Below are positions 10,367 through 22,828 of a DNA stretch of 24,575 bases, piece by piece. The notes under the pieces are model-generated. The model was not told the origin of the DNA. It ran no database searches and was given only the letters and a program-made list of their open reading frames with translations. The stretch lies in the IMG/VR virus record IMGVR_UViG_3300022200_002408, positions 1 to 24,575 of that record; one strand, 5' to 3'. The DNA comes from a virus. Both the position numbers and the translations under genes were made by a program. Positions within the stretch are counted from its first letter, which is position 1. The number at the start of each line of letters is the position of its first letter.

Positions 10367-11500
10367 ATGGAAATGAAAGTAAGATTATTAGATGGTACGG
10401 AGGAAAAAGGAACTGCTCAAGTAGAACAAGAATTACTTGAAAAACACGAGCAACAATTTCAGAATGTTAATATACCCGGACAAGAACAACAACAAGAACA
10501 ACAACAAGAGCAACAACAAGAGCAACAACAAGAGCAAGAGCAACAACAAGAGCAACAACAAGAAGTTGAATTAAACGAAGAACAAGTTCTTTCATATATT
10601 GGAAAAAGATACAATAAGCAGATTAATTCATTAGATGAATTAACAGCTCAAAGGGAAGAAGTCGAGGCTTTACCTGAAGATGTTGCTGCTTATATGAAAT
10701 ACAAAAAAGAAACGGGTAGAGGTTTTGAGGATTTTTTGAGTCTTAAAAAAGACTTTGACTCAATGGACCCTGAAGATTTACTTGAAACTTATTTATCAGC
10801 AACCCAAGAAGGGCTTGATGATGAAGATATTGACACATTGATGGAATCGTATAGGTATGATGAAGATATTGACGATGATTCAACTATTAGAAAAATAAAA
10901 TTAGAAAGAAAAAAGGCTGTTGCTGAAGCAAAGAAATTTTTTAATTCTCAAAAAGAAAAATATAAAGTGCCACTTGAGTCAAGTGTTCCGCTAATTTCTG
11001 ATGAGGAAAAAGAAGTTTACGAAGGTTATAAGCAATATACCAAGCAAGCGAAGACACTTGAAGAAGAGAATGAGAGAAAGAGAAATTGGTTTAACCAAAA
11101 ATCTGATGAAGTATTTAGCGGAGAGTTCAAAGGTTTTGACTTCAACGTTAATGACAAACGAATCACTTTCAATCCCGGAGATGCCAATGAACTTAAAAAA
11201 GCACAAGCTACACCTGCAAACTTTATAAATAAGTTTTTAGATGAGCAAGGGTTAATTAAGGATGCGGCAGGTTATCATAGGTCGTTAGCTGTAGCTATGA
11301 ATCCTGAGAGATTTGCAAAGTTCTTTTACGAACAAGGGCAAGCAGATGCTACTGAAGGCACTATGAAGAATATTAAAAATATTCAAATGTCTGCCAATAG
11401 AGCGCCTGAAATTACAAAATCAACGGAAGGAATGCAGGTAAAAGCGGTAAACCCTGATTCCGGTAAAAGTCTAAAAATCCGTAGCATAAAACGAATATAA
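10367..11500 (+). CDS. Scaffold-like head assembly protein with Gln/Glu repeat
   Basis: 377 residues between portal and major capsid genes, the usual place for a scaffold. It is acidic and highly helical, with an N-terminal low-complexity run of QQQE units at residues 39-66, a long acidic helical middle (DDEDIDTLMESYRYDEDIDD), and a basic C-terminus ending SLKIRSIKRI. Scaffolds commonly bind the inner capsid surface through a basic C-terminal helix, which fits. No protease motif is evident. A scaffold role is inferred from composition and position; a minor head protein is the alternative. It has its own promoter box and A/T leader, and shares a transcript with the capsid gene 19 bases downstream. 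Confidence 0.6.
   Translation: MEMKVRLLDGTEEKGTAQVEQELLEKHEQQFQNVNIPGQEQQQEQQQEQQQEQQQEQEQQQEQQQEVELNEEQVLSYIGKRYNKQINSLDELTAQREEVEALPEDVAAYMKYKKETGRGFEDFLSLKKDFDSMDPEDLLETYLSATQEGLDDEDIDTLMESYRYDEDIDDDSTIRKIKLERKKAVAEAKKFFNSQKEKYKVPLESSVPLISDEEKEVYEGYKQYTKQAKTLEEENERKRNWFNQKSDEVFSGEFKGFDFNVNDKRITFNPGDANELKKAQATPANFINKFLDEQGLIKDAAGYHRSLAVAMNPERFAKFFYEQGQADATEGTMKNIKNIQMSANRAPEITKSTEGMQVKAVNPDSGKSLKIRSIKRI
10481..10563 (+). repeat. In-frame 12-bp tandem repeat (QQQE-coding)
   Basis: About seven imperfect copies of a 12-base unit, CAACAACAAGAG (or GAA), within the scaffold-like gene. One copy is shortened to CAAGAG. It encodes alternating QQQE blocks and stays in frame, so copy-number change would lengthen or shorten the protein without breaking it. 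Confidence 0.85.
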
Positions 11501-15757: not shown

Positions 15758-18700
15758 ATGGCGAATTTCACAAGAAATTTTTTAGCAGGAAGAATGAATA
15801 AAATCGTTGACCAACGAGTACTTCCTGATGGCGAATATGTTGATGCTATGAATATCAGAATGGGGTCAACAGAAATGTCTGAAGTAGGAGTTATTACCAA
15901 CACAATGGGTAATGATTTAGCTGCTCCTGCATTAAGATATATTGACGGAACAGTGTTAAGCACTCAGGCAAGAACAATTGGAGCTATGGAAGATAGCGCT
16001 AACGAGACTATTTATTGGTTTGTTCACGACCCTGCATTTCCTATCGCGCCTACAGGTAAACTTGATTTAATTGTATCTATTAACGTATTAACTAATGTAT
16101 TAACATATCACATCATTAGTATAAATGACGGAGGAAACGTAAACACTACATTAAATTTCAATCCTGCCTATCTTATTACGGGTATCAACTTAATTGATAG
16201 CCTTTTATTTTGGACAGATGATTATAATGCTCCACGAAATATAAACATAAATAGAAACTACCCTAATCCGATAGCAAATATTGATGCGTTGAACCCTGAA
16301 TCAATTCTTGTTATAAAAAAACCGCCGATTGAGGCACCTGAAGTAAGTCCAATTACTACAAGCGGACAACAAAATTTTTTAGAAACAAGATTTATTTGTT
16401 TTGCTTATAGATATAAATACGTAGATGGAGAGTATTCTGCTACATCTCAATGGTCTGCACCTGCATTTGTTCCTAATCAATTCCAATTTAGCGTTAATAG
16501 TATGCTAAATGAAGGTATGACTAATTTTTGCAATACAGCAATTATAAATTTCAATTCAGGAGGACCTCTTGTAGTTGGAATTGACTTATTATTTAAGCAG
16601 TCAGAAAATAATGTAATTAAAATTATTCAGCAATTTAACAAGGTAGATGCCGGATATGCGGATAATACCGTATATCAATATTCATTTAATAACAGTAAAA
16701 TATTTACAGTACTAAATGAAGCTGAAATTTTAAGACTTTACGATAATGTTCCTCGTTATGCTAAGGCTCAGACTATTATGGGAAATAGATTGATGTTTGG
16801 AAATTACGTTGAGGGATATGATTTAATTGATAAAAATGGTCAGCCAACTAAAATTGAATACTCTACAAATTTAATCACTGAAGTTATTGGAGATGCAGAT
16901 TTAATTGATAGCACAGGAGATGGAATTTACAATATAGACCCTGCGTCTACGGGATTAACAGTAGGAGATGCTATTATTAATTTTGACTTAGGCGCTTCTC
17001 CATTGGTTGAAGGTGCTGCAATATCTTTAGATATTACAATATCTCATAAATTATGGACAGGATATGTTCCTGAGCCTGACGAAATAACGGATGGAATTAC
17101 ACTTCAGTTTAGCTTCTTGCTGACTCAAAACTACAGTTCTGTATATCAATTAGCAACAAGCTCTCAATTTAAAAATGCAATAGGTACTTCTTTAAATATA
17201 CTTCCTGTTTCAACTACTATTTTAGGTCAAGATACGTCCTGTAACGGGGTTACATTTACTGATTCTTTTAATTGCGCATTGCCAAATAATTTAGGTTTAG
17301 CTCCTAATACGTTTATAAAATATGCAAGTGGTATCAATACTATCTCTACTGTTTTACAACCGATAAAAATAATAACTACTCCCGCAAGTACTGTAATTGG
17401 TTTGCAATTCCCATCTATGGTTTATGTTGATAATATAGCTACTCCTACAAAAAAAGCATACGAGTATTACCAAGTGACTTTTGCAAGAGCGGCTTTTCAA
17501 GAGATTGCAAATCCTCGAAGTTTACATAGTAATAGAGGGTACGAAGTGGGATTGGTTTATATGGATGAGTTCAATAGAGCTACAACTGCGTTAGTTAGTA
17601 CTAATAATGCAGAGTTTGTCCCTTGTGGATATGCTCCAAATAAAAATAGTATTCAAGTTATAATACCTACTACTCAAAGAGCGCCTAAGTGGGCTACACG
17701 ATATAAGTTTGTAATTAAACCTGACGCTGAAAGGTACGAAACAATTTATAGTAATTTATTTTTTATTAATCCCGAAACAAATGAAGCTTGGCTTTTGCTT
17801 GAAGGAGAGAATATGAGGAAAGTTGAAGACGGGGATAGATTGATTGTAAAAGCAGACACTCAAGGACCTACACTTAATTGTACTTATACTACTGTTCTTG
17901 AAAAAACTGCTCAAGCAGCAGGATTTCTTGAAATACCGACTGAAGATGACCCAACCGTATTTATTAACGTACCGGCAGGTTTATATATAAAGTTAAATCC
18001 TAATAGTTTTAATTTAGTACAGACTGAAAATGCTATAATAGCTCCGGGTCAAAAACAACAATGGGCAAGTGGAGGAAACCACACTATAATGTCTTACGAT
18101 ATGAATATTGAAGACCCTGCAAATCCGGGAATGTATATTGATTACAATATCCCTGCCGGAAGTAGAATCAATTGGTACGTAGATTGGAATAGAGCAGGTG
18201 TTGGAGGAGCTTGTGAACCAAGGGGTTACACATTAGAAAAAGTATATACCTCTACTCAGGACTATGATAATATGTATGAATGGTTTGTTGGAGATAATAT
18301 TCAACTTACAATCAATTCAGGTATTGATAAAGGAGATGACGAAACTAATGAGTTTGTTCCGGGAGTAGGTTCTCAATTAACTGCTGTTAATGACAGTATA
18401 AATTATTGGCAGTTTTATAGAAACCCAACTACTAATCAACTTACTATTAGTTGGAGTAGTACAAATAGTTGCACGGGTATTAATTATAAGTATTCACGTA
18501 GAATTTATATCACAGCAAACATTGAAGTGTTTCGTGCAGAAAATACATTAATTTTCGAAACAGAACCTTCTGATGCTTTGCCTGATGTATTTTTTGAGAA
18601 CGAACTATCATTTTCTATTGATTCTGATGGTAATCATTCAGGTAATATTCAAAATCAAAATATAGTAGCAGGTACTGCCGGTATAATTGACACTATGTTT

Positions 18701-20638
18701 TTTAATTGTTATTCTTTTGGAAATGGAGCAGAAAGTTACAAGATACGTGATTCTATTCTAGGAAGGTCTTTTAGTTTTGGAGAAAGAGTAACTACCGTTG
18801 CTGCTCAAGACTATAAAGTTGCTGATAGGTTTTCTGATATTACCTATAGTGGTGTTTATAATGGGGAGTCAAATATCAACAAATTAAACGAATTTAATTC
18901 GGGGTTATCTAACTTTAAGCGTTGCGAAGCTTCGTTTGGGGAAATACAATTGTTAGATGGTAGAAATACAGATATTCTTTGTTTACAAGAGGATAAAATA
19001 TCTTACGTTTTAGCGGAGAAAAACTTATTGTCAGATGCAAGTGCCGGTGGTATAATTACAGCTACTCCTGAGGTCTTAGGAACGCAAATAGCACGTACTG
19101 AAAAGTACGGTATTAGTTTCAACCCTGAGAGCTACGTTCAATGGGGATTTGATAGATTTTTTGCAGATGCAAAACGCGGGGCTGTTATTCAATTAAAAGG
19201 TGGGGATTCTCAAAATGAACAATTAATAGCAGTATCTGAACAAAATATGAGAACTTGGTTTAGAGATAAATTCAATTCATCATTTAACTATCAAAAACTC
19301 GGGGGTTTTGACCCTTATATGAATGAGTATGTGTTGTCTATGAACGACCAAGAACTCCCTTTAAATCCTCAATGTTTGAAATGCGGTATTAATCAAACAT
19401 TTACATTATCTATAGCAGATGAAAAATCTAAAGAAGTAGTATATTGTGTCGATTTAGGGCCTCTTGTAGGTATTACTGAAATAAGTTGGGATTTTGTTAG
19501 TATTGAATCAGGAACAGGAGGGTTAAATGTATCTGTAGAATACAATGGAGTTGTAACTACTTCAGGGTATACAAATATTCCGGGGAATTTATTTTTTGAT
19601 AAAAACAATGTATCTGTAGAAACTGCAACAATTACTCTTGAGTACAACTTAGATATGGTTGTAAATGTTCTTGCAGACTGTTGTAATGCAGAACCAATGA
19701 CTATAGTTGAAGTTGTTTTAACAAATGATTCAGAATCAGGTCAAACCATACATACTCAATACAGATATATAGACGGAGCATTTATTGGACCTCTTCTTTC
19801 TAACTTAGTTTTATTCTCAAGCGGAACAGCAAGTCCTCTTGTATCAAGATATAATACAGTATCAGGATTTGTTGGGGCAGGCGGCTTCCCTCCTGAAGGA
19901 AGTACTATGAGATTGTATTCAAACGCAATAGTTCCTGACAATTATGTGTTTAACATAGCTCAAGATAAATTTAGATATTTAAGAAGCGGTGTATTATACA
20001 ACAACAACGATATTGATATTAATTCTTTATTAGGCGTTTCCACAGTTGCTACTCCTAATTCAGGCTCAGCCCCTTTGTACTATGTTGACTTTACGGTTCC
20101 TGCAAGTTCATTTGGAGAATACCTTTACTTGATTTGGGATTTAAGAGATGCTATACCTGCTGAATTATGTTTTGGAGGAACTATTAGTGATTCTTGTTGT
20201 GATTGTGTTCCGGGTAGTTACTATTTGAACGCGTCATTCCCTACAGCAACCTCTATATTTAATGACGTTAATTTATCTATTCCTGCAACAAATGGATTTT
20301 ATTCAACAGGTGGAATTGTTAGAGAATTAGTTGACGGTGTGTTATTACCTCAGCAACCTTGTAGTTCTTGTGGAGTTGAAGTATCTTTGTGTTTTGGAAC
20401 AAGTGCAATTGACGTATGTTGCAGTTGTGACTTAATATGTACAACTCCTTACAATCTTTATCAAGTAACAAATAATGAAGCCTTTGATACAACGCTTTAT
20501 TTTTATGACTCGTATGGAATATTGACAAGTTTACCATTATCAGCCTCTGCAATAGGAGTATTTTATTGCTCTATTGGAACTCCTTTTGCAGATACAAGTA
20601 TATCTATTATCGACATAAAATGCGAATGTATAACATAA
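15758..20638 (+). CDS. Muzzle / tail stabilisation protein (1626 aa) with Cys-rich C-terminal modules
   Basis: 1626 residues. The N-terminal signature GRMNKIVDQRVLPDGEYVDA (11-30) with MGSTEMSEVGVITNTMGND is typical of the large stabilisation or muzzle protein of crAss-like and other phages, and GSQNEQ-type loops follow. The body is Asn/Thr/Ile-rich beta structure, matching a propeller-like tail-tip. From about 1206 on it turns Cys-rich: CLKC at 1206, CC at 1308, CCDC at 1480-1483, CSSC at 1535-1538, CCSC at 1554-1557, and CEC near the end. Residues 1488-1539 form a module repeated at the N-terminus of the next protein. In relatives a FYSY-type end domain belongs to this protein; here it is a separate gene (21584). 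It should plug the tail channel and carry host-contact parts. Confidence 0.75.
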   Translation: MANFTRNFLAGRMNKIVDQRVLPDGEYVDAMNIRMGSTEMSEVGVITNTMGNDLAAPALRYIDGTVLSTQARTIGAMEDSANETIYWFVHDPAFPIAPTGKLDLIVSINVLTNVLTYHIISINDGGNVNTTLNFNPAYLITGINLIDSLLFWTDDYNAPRNININRNYPNPIANIDALNPESILVIKKPPIEAPEVSPITTSGQQNFLETRFICFAYRYKYVDGEYSATSQWSAPAFVPNQFQFSVNSMLNEGMTNFCNTAIINFNSGGPLVVGIDLLFKQSENNVIKIIQQFNKVDAGYADNTVYQYSFNNSKIFTVLNEAEILRLYDNVPRYAKAQTIMGNRLMFGNYVEGYDLIDKNGQPTKIEYSTNLITEVIGDADLIDSTGDGIYNIDPASTGLTVGDAIINFDLGASPLVEGAAISLDITISHKLWTGYVPEPDEITDGITLQFSFLLTQNYSSVYQLATSSQFKNAIGTSLNILPVSTTILGQDTSCNGVTFTDSFNCALPNNLGLAPNTFIKYASGINTISTVLQPIKIITTPASTVIGLQFPSMVYVDNIATPTKKAYEYYQVTFARAAFQEIANPRSLHSNRGYEVGLVYMDEFNRATTALVSTNNAEFVPCGYAPNKNSIQVIIPTTQRAPKWATRYKFVIKPDAERYETIYSNLFFINPETNEAWLLLEGENMRKVEDGDRLIVKADTQGPTLNCTYTTVLEKTAQAAGFLEIPTEDDPTVFINVPAGLYIKLNPNSFNLVQTENAIIAPGQKQQWASGGNHTIMSYDMNIEDPANPGMYIDYNIPAGSRINWYVDWNRAGVGGACEPRGYTLEKVYTSTQDYDNMYEWFVGDNIQLTINSGIDKGDDETNEFVPGVGSQLTAVNDSINYWQFYRNPTTNQLTISWSSTNSCTGINYKYSRRIYITANIEVFRAENTLIFETEPSDALPDVFFENELSFSIDSDGNHSGNIQNQNIVAGTAGIIDTMFFNCYSFGNGAESYKIRDSILGRSFSFGERVTTVAAQDYKVADRFSDITYSGVYNGESNINKLNEFNSGLSNFKRCEASFGEIQLLDGRNTDILCLQEDKISYVLAEKNLLSDASAGGIITATPEVLGTQIARTEKYGISFNPESYVQWGFDRFFADAKRGAVIQLKGGDSQNEQLIAVSEQNMRTWFRDKFNSSFNYQKLGGFDPYMNEYVLSMNDQELPLNPQCLKCGINQTFTLSIADEKSKEVVYCVDLGPLVGITEISWDFVSIESGTGGLNVSVEYNGVVTTSGYTNIPGNLFFDKNNVSVETATITLEYNLDMVVNVLADCCNAEPMTIVEVVLTNDSESGQTIHTQYRYIDGAFIGPLLSNLVLFSSGTASPLVSRYNTVSGFVGAGGFPPEGSTMRLYSNAIVPDNYVFNIAQDKFRYLRSGVLYNNNDIDINSLLGVSTVATPNSGSAPLYYVDFTVPASSFGEYLYLIWDLRDAIPAELCFGGTISDSCCDCVPGSYYLNASFPTATSIFNDVNLSIPATNGFYSTGGIVRELVDGVLLPQQPCSSCGVEVSLCFGTSAIDVCCSCDLICTTPYNLYQVTNNEAFDTTLYFYDSYGILTSLPLSASAIGVFYCSIGTPFADTSISIIDIKCECIT

Positions 20639-20652
20639 TTTAATTAAATAAT

Positions 20653-21579
20653 ATGGCAATAAATGCACCTTACTTTCTAGATGCCGCTGACTTAGATTTA
20701 GCTACATCAATATATTTAGATTTAGCACTAACACTCGTAGCTCCTGATGGATTCTATGGAGATGGAACAATAACAAGAGAGCAGTCATCAGGAATACTTT
20801 TGGCTGCTGAGTCTTGTGCAACTTGCGGTGTTCCTTGTGGTGCTTCCGTAAGTGGCTCAGGAGGTCAAGGCATTTATCAAGTAAATTTAAATACAGGAAC
20901 TCTTGACACAGGAGCTATAATAATTAGATTTGACCCTTTTAATTTCCCTGATGGTGTTAGAGCAACTTATGATGGAGTTGTATATAATAAATTATCATCT
21001 CCTATAGATGGCTTGCATCAAAGTACAACTCCCGGAAATTTCACAGTTGCAGGAGAAGTAGCCGGAGATTGTGGATTGTCAGGAAATACTACGACTCTTC
21101 CATCATTAGTTGAGTATCTTTATGACGGAACTTCGTTTGTTGCGACAGGAAATACTCAATCAATTACCGTGCTTCCCGGAGACGTTTCGTTAGGAGCTCC
21201 CCCCGGTTTTTGTGTTTTAGTAATACCAAAGCCTTCAGGAACTCCTAACAATGTGTTTCTTGAAATGCTTGGGCCTTGTGGAGGAACTGCTTGGGATTTA
21301 AAAGCCGCTTGCCCATTGGCGTTGCCTGTATTTAATTCTTCTAATGTATTTGCAACTTCATCAATCCCTTGTGTTACCGCTTATGCTAATACTTTTTATT
21401 TTGCAAAGGTTCACACAGCATTAGATACGTTTATTGGATTGTATGATTATGTATTTGTAGATGCTAATGGACAGTTTACAGTTCCTGATGGGTTTTATCT
21501 TGTGGACAATACAGCAATACCAAATAGCGTGATAGAAGTAGTTAATGGGATAGTAGTAGGAATAACAAATTGCGTTTAA
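20653..21579 (+). CDS. Cys-rich tail-tip-like structural protein
   Basis: 308 residues in three parts. Residues 6-59 repeat the Cys module of the muzzle protein end: YFLDAA, LATSIYLD, PDGFYGDG, TREQSSGILLAAESCATCG. The middle, about 68-230, is a beta domain (GTLDTGAIIIRFDPFNFPDG, DCGLSGNTT, SLGAPPGFCVL, MLGPCGGTAWDL) that I recognise from Bacteroidetes phages without a known role. The last part, about 240-308 (FYFAKVHTALDTFIGLYDYV and FTVPDGFYLVDN), looks like a diverged further module. No signal peptide. By position and shared module it probably sits on the tail tip with the muzzle protein; a receptor-contact role is inferred only. Confidence 0.6.
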   Translation: MAINAPYFLDAADLDLATSIYLDLALTLVAPDGFYGDGTITREQSSGILLAAESCATCGVPCGASVSGSGGQGIYQVNLNTGTLDTGAIIIRFDPFNFPDGVRATYDGVVYNKLSSPIDGLHQSTTPGNFTVAGEVAGDCGLSGNTTTLPSLVEYLYDGTSFVATGNTQSITVLPGDVSLGAPPGFCVLVIPKPSGTPNNVFLEMLGPCGGTAWDLKAACPLALPVFNSSNVFATSSIPCVTAYANTFYFAKVHTALDTFIGLYDYVFVDANGQFTVPDGFYLVDNTAIPNSVIEVVNGIVVGITNCV

Positions 21580-21583
21580 TATT

Positions 21584-22396
21584 ATGAATTATACATTATC
21601 ATATAGCGAAGGAGTTGCCGGATGGGTATCTTTCTATTCTTATTATCCTGATTGGATGATTGGAATGAACAATTATTTTTACACCTTTAAGGGTGGTAAT
21701 ATTTACAAGCATAATGTAAATGCTTCACGCAATACATTTTATCAGCCTTGGTGGACTCAGTTTGGTCAACCTGCAAATGCGTTTACACCAACATCTATTC
21801 AAACGGTATTTAATAATGCTGCTCTTGAAAATAAATTATTTAAAACCTTAAATATAGAAGGAGATGCTCCTTGGGGTGCTACTTTAGAGACTGATTTACA
21901 GTTTTCAGGATTCATAGACCAATCTTGGTTTTCTAAAAAAGAAGCATCTTATTTTGCATTTGTTAGGAATAATAGCATTGGAGAATTTGCTCTTAGAAGT
22001 TTGAACGGTATAGGAAATAGTTTAACGGTTACAGGTGCAGGTACCAATATCGCCCAAGTTAACTTTAGCATAAACCCATTAGTATCTATAGGAAATATTA
22101 TAAGCATTGGAGACTATGTTTATTTCGGAACAAATGCTCAATTTGCAGGAACTGTAGTTGATGTTATAGTCGATTATCCGGCAGGTATAAATAGAATAAT
22201 TGTAAACAACAATATGTTGTCTCCGCTAACTATCCCAATACCGGGGAATGTTAATTATTTCTTATACGTTAAAAATTCTGTAGCTGAGTCTCACGGAGTT
22301 TTAGGGCACTATTGTACAACTACATTATCTAATAGTTACAATAGTAAAATTGAGTTATTTGCAGTTGAAGCTAATGTAATGAAAAGTTTCCCTTAA
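21584..22396 (+). CDS. Separated C-terminal domain of muzzle/stabilisation protein
   Basis: 270 residues. The start MNYTLSYSEGVAGWVSFYSY with MIGMNNYFYTFKGGNIYKHN (26-44) and the end HGVLGHYCTTTLSNSYNSKI followed by ELFAVEANVMKSFP match what I know as the C-terminal part of the large stabilisation protein in crAss-like and related phages. A beta segment at about 165-230 (SIGNIISIGDYVYFG) looks inserted. Here the part is an independent gene, two genes after the muzzle N-terminal body. It is likely to assemble with the 1626-residue protein. Begins four bases after the previous stop, with an in-frame ATG and no alternative that keeps the FYSY motif. Confidence 0.65.
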   Translation: MNYTLSYSEGVAGWVSFYSYYPDWMIGMNNYFYTFKGGNIYKHNVNASRNTFYQPWWTQFGQPANAFTPTSIQTVFNNAALENKLFKTLNIEGDAPWGATLETDLQFSGFIDQSWFSKKEASYFAFVRNNSIGEFALRSLNGIGNSLTVTGAGTNIAQVNFSINPLVSIGNIISIGDYVYFGTNAQFAGTVVDVIVDYPAGINRIIVNNNMLSPLTIPIPGNVNYFLYVKNSVAESHGVLGHYCTTTLSNSYNSKIELFAVEANVMKSFP

Positions 22397-22417: not shown

Positions 22418-22828
22418 ATGGAATTAGAAATCAGACCTCTTAACGAAAATGATTATCAAGAAATCCTTGTAGAATGGTGGAAACAATGGAATTGGGAGCC
22501 ACCGGCTAAGGACTTTTTGCCTGAAGATGGTAAGGGTGGAGTTATAGTTTATGATGGAGCTATACCAATTTGTGCGGGATTTATATACGTTACAAATTCA
22601 AAAGTGGCTTGGGTAGATTGGATTATATCTAACAAAGAGTATAGAATAAAAGATAAAAGAAGAGAGGCAATTAAATTATTAATAGAGTCTCTTACTAATA
22701 TTTGCAAAAATACAGGAAGTAAATACGGTTACGCATTGATTAAAAATCCAAGTTTAGTCCAAACTTATAAAGACCTTGGGTGGTCTAAGGGAGAAGGGTA
22801 TACAAGTGAAATGATAAAAATATTATAA
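22418..22828 (+). CDS. GNAT-like acetyltransferase
   Basis: 136 residues resembling the GNAT fold: an opening strand IRPLNENDYQEILVEWW (5-21), central strands GGVIVYDGAIPICAGFIYVT (40-59) and KVAWVDWIISNKEYR (62-76), a helix KRREAIKLLIESLTNIC, and a closing NPSLVQTYKDLGWSKGEGYT (110-129), where GNATs read N-x-x-x-x-x-x-Y-x-x-x-G-F/W. The usual acetyl-CoA loop R/Q-x-x-G-x-G/A is not present between strand and helix; KDKRRE stands there, so activity or cofactor binding is uncertain. Acetyl-CoA-dependent modification of a host or phage target would be the family role. It lies between tail-tip and internal-virion genes, behind its own promoter box. Confidence 0.55.
   Translation: MELEIRPLNENDYQEILVEWWKQWNWEPPAKDFLPEDGKGGVIVYDGAIPICAGFIYVTNSKVAWVDWIISNKEYRIKDKRREAIKLLIESLTNICKNTGSKYGYALIKNPSLVQTYKDLGWSKGEGYTSEMIKIL

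Follow-up and report, generated by a model that had tools for sequence, protein, structure and literature searches.

A crAss-like phage muzzle encoded as two chains, with a probable exchangeable adhesin gene between them

In a 24,575-base virus fragment (the window, by which we mean this whole stretch) the muzzle of a crAss-like phage was found to be encoded by two separate genes, with a third gene, B, lying between them. We consider it probable that the locus represents a split muzzle carrying an adhesin, B, that is swapped by recombination, the adhesin role being proposed from the pattern of exchange described below. The fragment bears head and tail genes of the crAss-like type, starting with the portal, going on to virion structural proteins and the muzzle, and then to B and C. 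The features of the locus are as follows.

15758–20638, plus strand: muzzle N-terminal chain, 1626 aa (ORF list; phrog_14478, 1.4e-203)
19355–20164, plus strand: D domain (muzzle residues 1200–1469), inserted where fused muzzles run straight into the C segment
20165–20206, plus strand: Cys joint copy 1, LCFGGTISDSCCDC (1470–1483; motif comparison)
20219–20371, plus strand: module copy in the muzzle (1488–1538; local alignment, tblastn, family profile)
20387–20428, plus strand: Cys joint copy 2, LCFGTSAIDVCCSC (1544–1557; motif comparison)
20429–20635, plus strand: T domain (1558–1626), with homologues also within some B proteins
20653–21579, plus strand: B protein, 308 aa, Cys-rich accessory chain (ORF list; AF2 pLDDT 91.5)
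20671–20826, plus strand: module copy at the B N-terminus (residues 7–58; alignment, family profile); swap breakpoints are most frequent at its end
20836–21357, plus strand: Bmid, the beta-rich middle domain of B (about 62–235); phi13:2 has a homologous stretch as part of its muzzle chain
21433–21573, plus strand: degenerate further module copy b2 (B about 261–307), the second swap breakpoint in relatives
21584–22396, plus strand: C protein, 270 aa, the muzzle C-terminal part as its own chain (ORF list, PF25729, hhalign to gp44)

The ORF list agrees with an earlier sequence-only reading of this DNA, which had placed three genes here with a Cys-rich protein in the middle. All three ORFs are on the plus strand, and the gaps between them are 14 nt (muzzle–B) and 4 nt (B–C). 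The signature GRMN...LPDGEYVDA, also pointed out in that reading, corresponds to muzzle residues 11–30, and SEGV...FYSY and the terminal KSFP are on the third protein. The muzzle N-terminus is homologous to that of crAss001 gp44: its profile aligns with gp44 1–160 (hhalign, prob 59, E 9e-5), and PF25731 (crAss_MUZ) exceeds the Pfam cut-off in the relatives L006 and L021. For the window muzzle itself no PF25731 match was reported by Pfam at E 0.1, though phrog_14478 matches it at 1.4e-203; a PDB sequence search gave no match for muzzle or C. Like gp44, the muzzle gene comes after a series of small structural genes. Another gene, at 10367–11500, follows the portal gene and precedes the next one for a virion structural protein; it contains a long Q/E run (QQEQQQEQQQEQ...).

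The identity of C was clear from several comparisons. Its residues 65–130 match PF25729 (crAss_MUZ_C) at 3.1e-12 (47.2 bits; cut-off 27) and residues 2–36 match the last 35 positions of PF25731, under the cut-off (both Pfam), while the C profile can be aligned over its whole length to the final 175 residues of crAss001 gp44 (1197–1371; hhalign, prob 99.4, E 4.7e-21). As judged by these matches, the C gene product is the C-terminal part of the muzzle, the crAss_MUZ_C domain being present in the window but encoded by a separate gene.

A single-chain muzzle is found in crAss001, an elemovirus (elemo gp22), phi38:1, Calle_1 and Gundel_1. At the corresponding point, the fused relatives pass from ...EYVLSM-type into TLSYSEGV.GW.SF-type sequence with about 5–18 residues between core and C (5 in phi38:1 and Calle_1, 8 in Gundel_1, 18 in elemo). 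Homology thus shows that the window muzzle core and the C product together equal the single muzzle chain of these phages. Because fused chains with so short a junction exist, we regard the muzzle as split in two and B as an added chain. The expectation that the end domain belongs on the muzzle chain and is fused to it in relatives was therefore borne out by Pfam, hhalign and the fused forms themselves. A split over three genes, as first proposed, was not: the putatively ancestral muzzle comprises two genes only, and B is an extra chain within the insertion. Since the window carries both muzzle ends on two ORFs and not on one polypeptide, it is filed as a split variant rather than as a standard crassvirus muzzle. 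That the separate-C phages form one clade was not rejected (p-AU 0.075) on a tree with long branches, which fixes neither the number of fissions nor the fused form as ancestral. Wherever a surveyed locus has a D insert as well as a C gene, the latter is a separate ORF. A limited search of the open-access literature gave no description of a split muzzle. It appears that a large oligomeric tail protein here tolerates a chain break at a point where the fused form continues unbroken.

The published description of gp44 assigns the later propeller blades and the ring-joining part to the sequence beyond residue 1021, and has the crass domain as the distal one, probably in contact with the host (PMC10172136). 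By comparison with this structure, the break would lie between neighbouring segments of the fused muzzle, within what should be the propeller part; the exact blade we infer. The sequence-only reading had placed the locus at the part of the virion that meets the host. A role in diversification stands, but the break falls in the probable propeller part and not in the crass domain, which is the most host-facing.

Between the core and C points the window contains an insertion of about 430 muzzle residues and the entire B gene. The muzzle chain runs in the order core (residues 1–1199), D domain, Cys joint, module, second Cys joint and T domain, and the AF2 model of residues 1184–1626 has a mean pLDDT of 90.3. 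In the relative L095 (1185–7946) the muzzle chain reaches 2253 aa, and its extension holds seven bacterial surface Ig-like domains (PF16403) past the D domain.

The muzzle and B stretches previously described as one module do resemble each other far above chance: the best local alignment scores 118 (maximum 77 among 500 shuffles), tblastn pairs them at E 2.5e-9 with 41% identity, and a family profile matches the muzzle and B copies at 7.5e-27 and 8.3e-26. When compared by secondary structure, the two copies also share the same predicted pattern of strands. The clusters CCDC (1480–1483) and CCSC (1554–1557) are indeed spaced by 74 residues, and both proved to belong to copies of a joint motif, LCFG....D.CC.C, at 1470–1483 and 1544–1557 on either side of the module. 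Muzzles without the module have a single joint in 63 of 66 cases, while those bearing it mostly have two (30/36). Since joint number follows module presence, the spacing of the clusters shows how long the duplicated unit is. Both muzzle extensions and B proteins were found to contain the module, T and a third small Cys motif (YNC).

The module had also been called mobile. A profile search found every examined copy at the muzzle/B/C locus, including all of the best 80 of 535 matching viral stretches, and this ruled out the module as a mobile element. A scan of a genome collection, built on an alignment of close relatives because a broader one was too diverse, gave 2 confirmed matches among 84,980 species, each of them within the same arrangement of genes. 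The idea of module copying holds in part: the module is shared and duplicated within the locus, with no spread elsewhere among the examined copies. An 84-nt DNA match (78.6%) between the muzzle extension and B in L143/L156 is suggestive of recent copying at the DNA level.

It should be mentioned that one locus of this phage group (L110) comes from CP070801.1, titled as an Aenigmatarchaeota MAG chromosome; the fetched stretch has 200 N bases, which suggests a chimeric bin.

The layout of the locus varies among relatives (counts refer to fetched loci, not deduplicated). The commonest arrangement (61 loci) is a muzzle without the module, a B with module, Bmid and b2, and C. The second (35) has the module in the muzzle, followed by B and C, and in the third (24) the B between muzzle and C has, of these parts, the module only. 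Loci without B are few (L006, L044, L057), as are those with B fused to the muzzle. Two unusual variants were seen: L048 (5806–7990) carries a tandem pair of B-type genes between muzzle and C, the first of which ends with an extra module, and in L022 (7216–7998) an internal gap, distant from the usual joints, makes B about 50 residues shorter than that of L028.

The window B matched no family in Pfam, PHROGs or NCBIfam. A Foldseek search of the PDB with its confident AF2 model (pLDDT 91.5) gave nothing significant (best E 0.02), the weak matches being to beta-sandwiches such as a collagen-binding-like domain; the fold recurs in predicted viral proteins, mostly without a name. A tie between B and the muzzle is provided by phi13:2, L040 and L100, where homologues of B form one chain with the muzzle.

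Could B instead serve structure or assembly, as a brace that holds the two muzzle chains together by Cys bridges and whose varied remainder reflects drift? Its gene sits between both muzzle genes, six cysteines (C55, C58, C62, C209, C220, C240) are invariant in 64 sequences, B proteins as small as 120–160 aa exist among relatives, and the crAss001 tail is disulfide-stabilised (PMC10172136), all of which would suit a brace. However, L006, L044 and L057 do without any B, and wholesale swapping for unrelated domains (Fib_succ_major) between muzzles 92–98% identical would be unexpected of such a part, so we find this role unlikely.

Identity across 102 non-redundant loci shows how differently B behaves from its neighbours. 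The Spearman coefficient against core identity was 0.66 for C and 0.70 for D, 0.20 for whole B and 0.51 for the B module. Breakpoints were located in 113 pairs of loci, not independent of each other, that have cores at least 80% identical (80–98%) and differ in B. DNA homology from the muzzle side stops at B codons 55–63, the module end, in 60 of the 113 pairs and at codons 300–320, the end of the degenerate second copy, in another 28; past the breakpoint it mostly resumes within a few bases of the B stop codon. For example, L060 and L072 are 92.8% identical in the core, 92% in the B module and 97% in C, with 18% over whole B, and L037 and L041 (core 95.7%, C 98%) have B proteins of 308 and 624 aa. 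In the window itself, homology to L018 reaches B codon 305 (of 308), and beyond this point L018 has a Fib_succ_major domain. On the core tree of the 102 loci, the B payload class changed at least 24 times. These alignments show that in relatives the B module is kept and the remainder is replaced wholesale at the module end or at the end of the second copy. The suggestion of a diversification device is well supported, in the form of payload swapping between close relatives.

Phage receptor-binding proteins with a conserved N-terminus and a variable remainder are common, and separate C genes are very common too (346 matching stretches in viral contigs). Ordinary gene-order variation plus phage mosaicism might thus suffice, C and B being plain virion genes in their own right and no site being specialised for swaps. 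Against this, fused forms are found on several branches, and the breakpoints are sharp at the module ends and stop codon, not scattered; we therefore judge this explanation improbable.

Fib_succ_major (PF09603) was detected in 4 of 62 B proteins (L018, L041, L042 and L047) and is absent from the window B (Pfam). It is a C-type-lectin-like target domain of DGRs (PMC4159848, PMC8143477), and one crAss-like phage carrying a DGR is already known (PMC7290462). A DGR might accordingly be thought to diversify B, as for other phage Fib_succ_major targets. No reverse transcriptase gene (RVT_1) was found in any of 22 relatives, several of them over 60 kb and L018, L041 and L042 included, whereas control genomes gave matches; the window record is a 24.6-kb fragment. 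Besides, the B differences are replacements of whole domains. We consider the action of a DGR on B very improbable. The likeness to known DGR targets lies in the payload domain of four B relatives; unlike those targets, the window B lacks the domain and these phages yielded no RVT_1.

Among known systems, crAss001 gp44 (PF25731/PF25729; PMC10172136) is homologous to the window muzzle and C at both termini; in the window, unlike gp44, a separate gene encodes the C segment, and the break is occupied by an insertion of the D domain, the Cys modules and the B gene. Cellulophaga phage phi13:2 (Pachyviridae; gp120/gp121) resembles the window in having C as a gene of its own (gp121) and in its D-like insert. 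The insert is followed by a B-like stretch (29.8% over 168 columns) which, unlike B, forms part of the muzzle chain; no copy of the 52-residue module was detected in gp120/gp121. The Manatee Spring podovirus MW202828 has the three-gene layout of the window, with a muzzle 48% identical and a middle protein bearing the module at 7–58. It differs in that the muzzle chain lacks the module and the middle protein, annotated as 'putative glycosidase', is 183 aa long with other sequence past the module. B also resembles modular phage receptor-binding proteins in its conserved N-terminal module and exchanged distal remainder, the N-terminal part being the presumed attachment. Unlike them, it sits between the muzzle halves, has homologues fused to the muzzle and uses small Cys modules as joints.

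Returning to the split muzzle with an exchangeable B, the following scheme can be proposed. The muzzle chain is broken at the fused-form junction, with a large insertion (D domain and small Cys-rich domains) and gene B at that place. C may fold back on the core and complete the propeller and ring-joining parts, as homology and the published domain description of gp44 suggest, and the N-terminal module of B may be the part by which it docks on the muzzle. On the upstream side the conserved module DNA, and on the downstream side the conserved C gene, could act as homology arms; flanked by them, the cell-contacting domains would be swapped by recombination while the muzzle fold stays untouched. 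Wholesale exchange of this kind, with the module kept, points to B as an exchangeable muzzle-mounted adhesin or receptor-binding protein. Contact of B with the cell is likewise suggested by the lectin-like replacements, the Ig-like domains of L095 at the same site and the fusions to the muzzle. More tentatively, it can be hypothesized that the propeller of a tail gatekeeper has been opened to give a protein of two chains, and that a Cys-module-anchored adhesin docked there is swapped by homologous recombination, the module end and stop codon serving as fixed joints in a retroelement-free diversification of receptors. Contact between muzzle and host in crAss-like phages has been proposed earlier, and this locus points to a concrete candidate for the part in contact with the cell, and one that can be swapped. 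The phage group has hundreds of sequenced relatives, in which near-identical natural pairs differing only in B provide a ready comparison.

Finally, a small gene located 3' of C (22418–22825) matches phrog_17252 (2e-42), which has no function assigned in PHROGs; its counterpart in MW202828 is annotated as an N-terminal acetyltransferase complex subunit.
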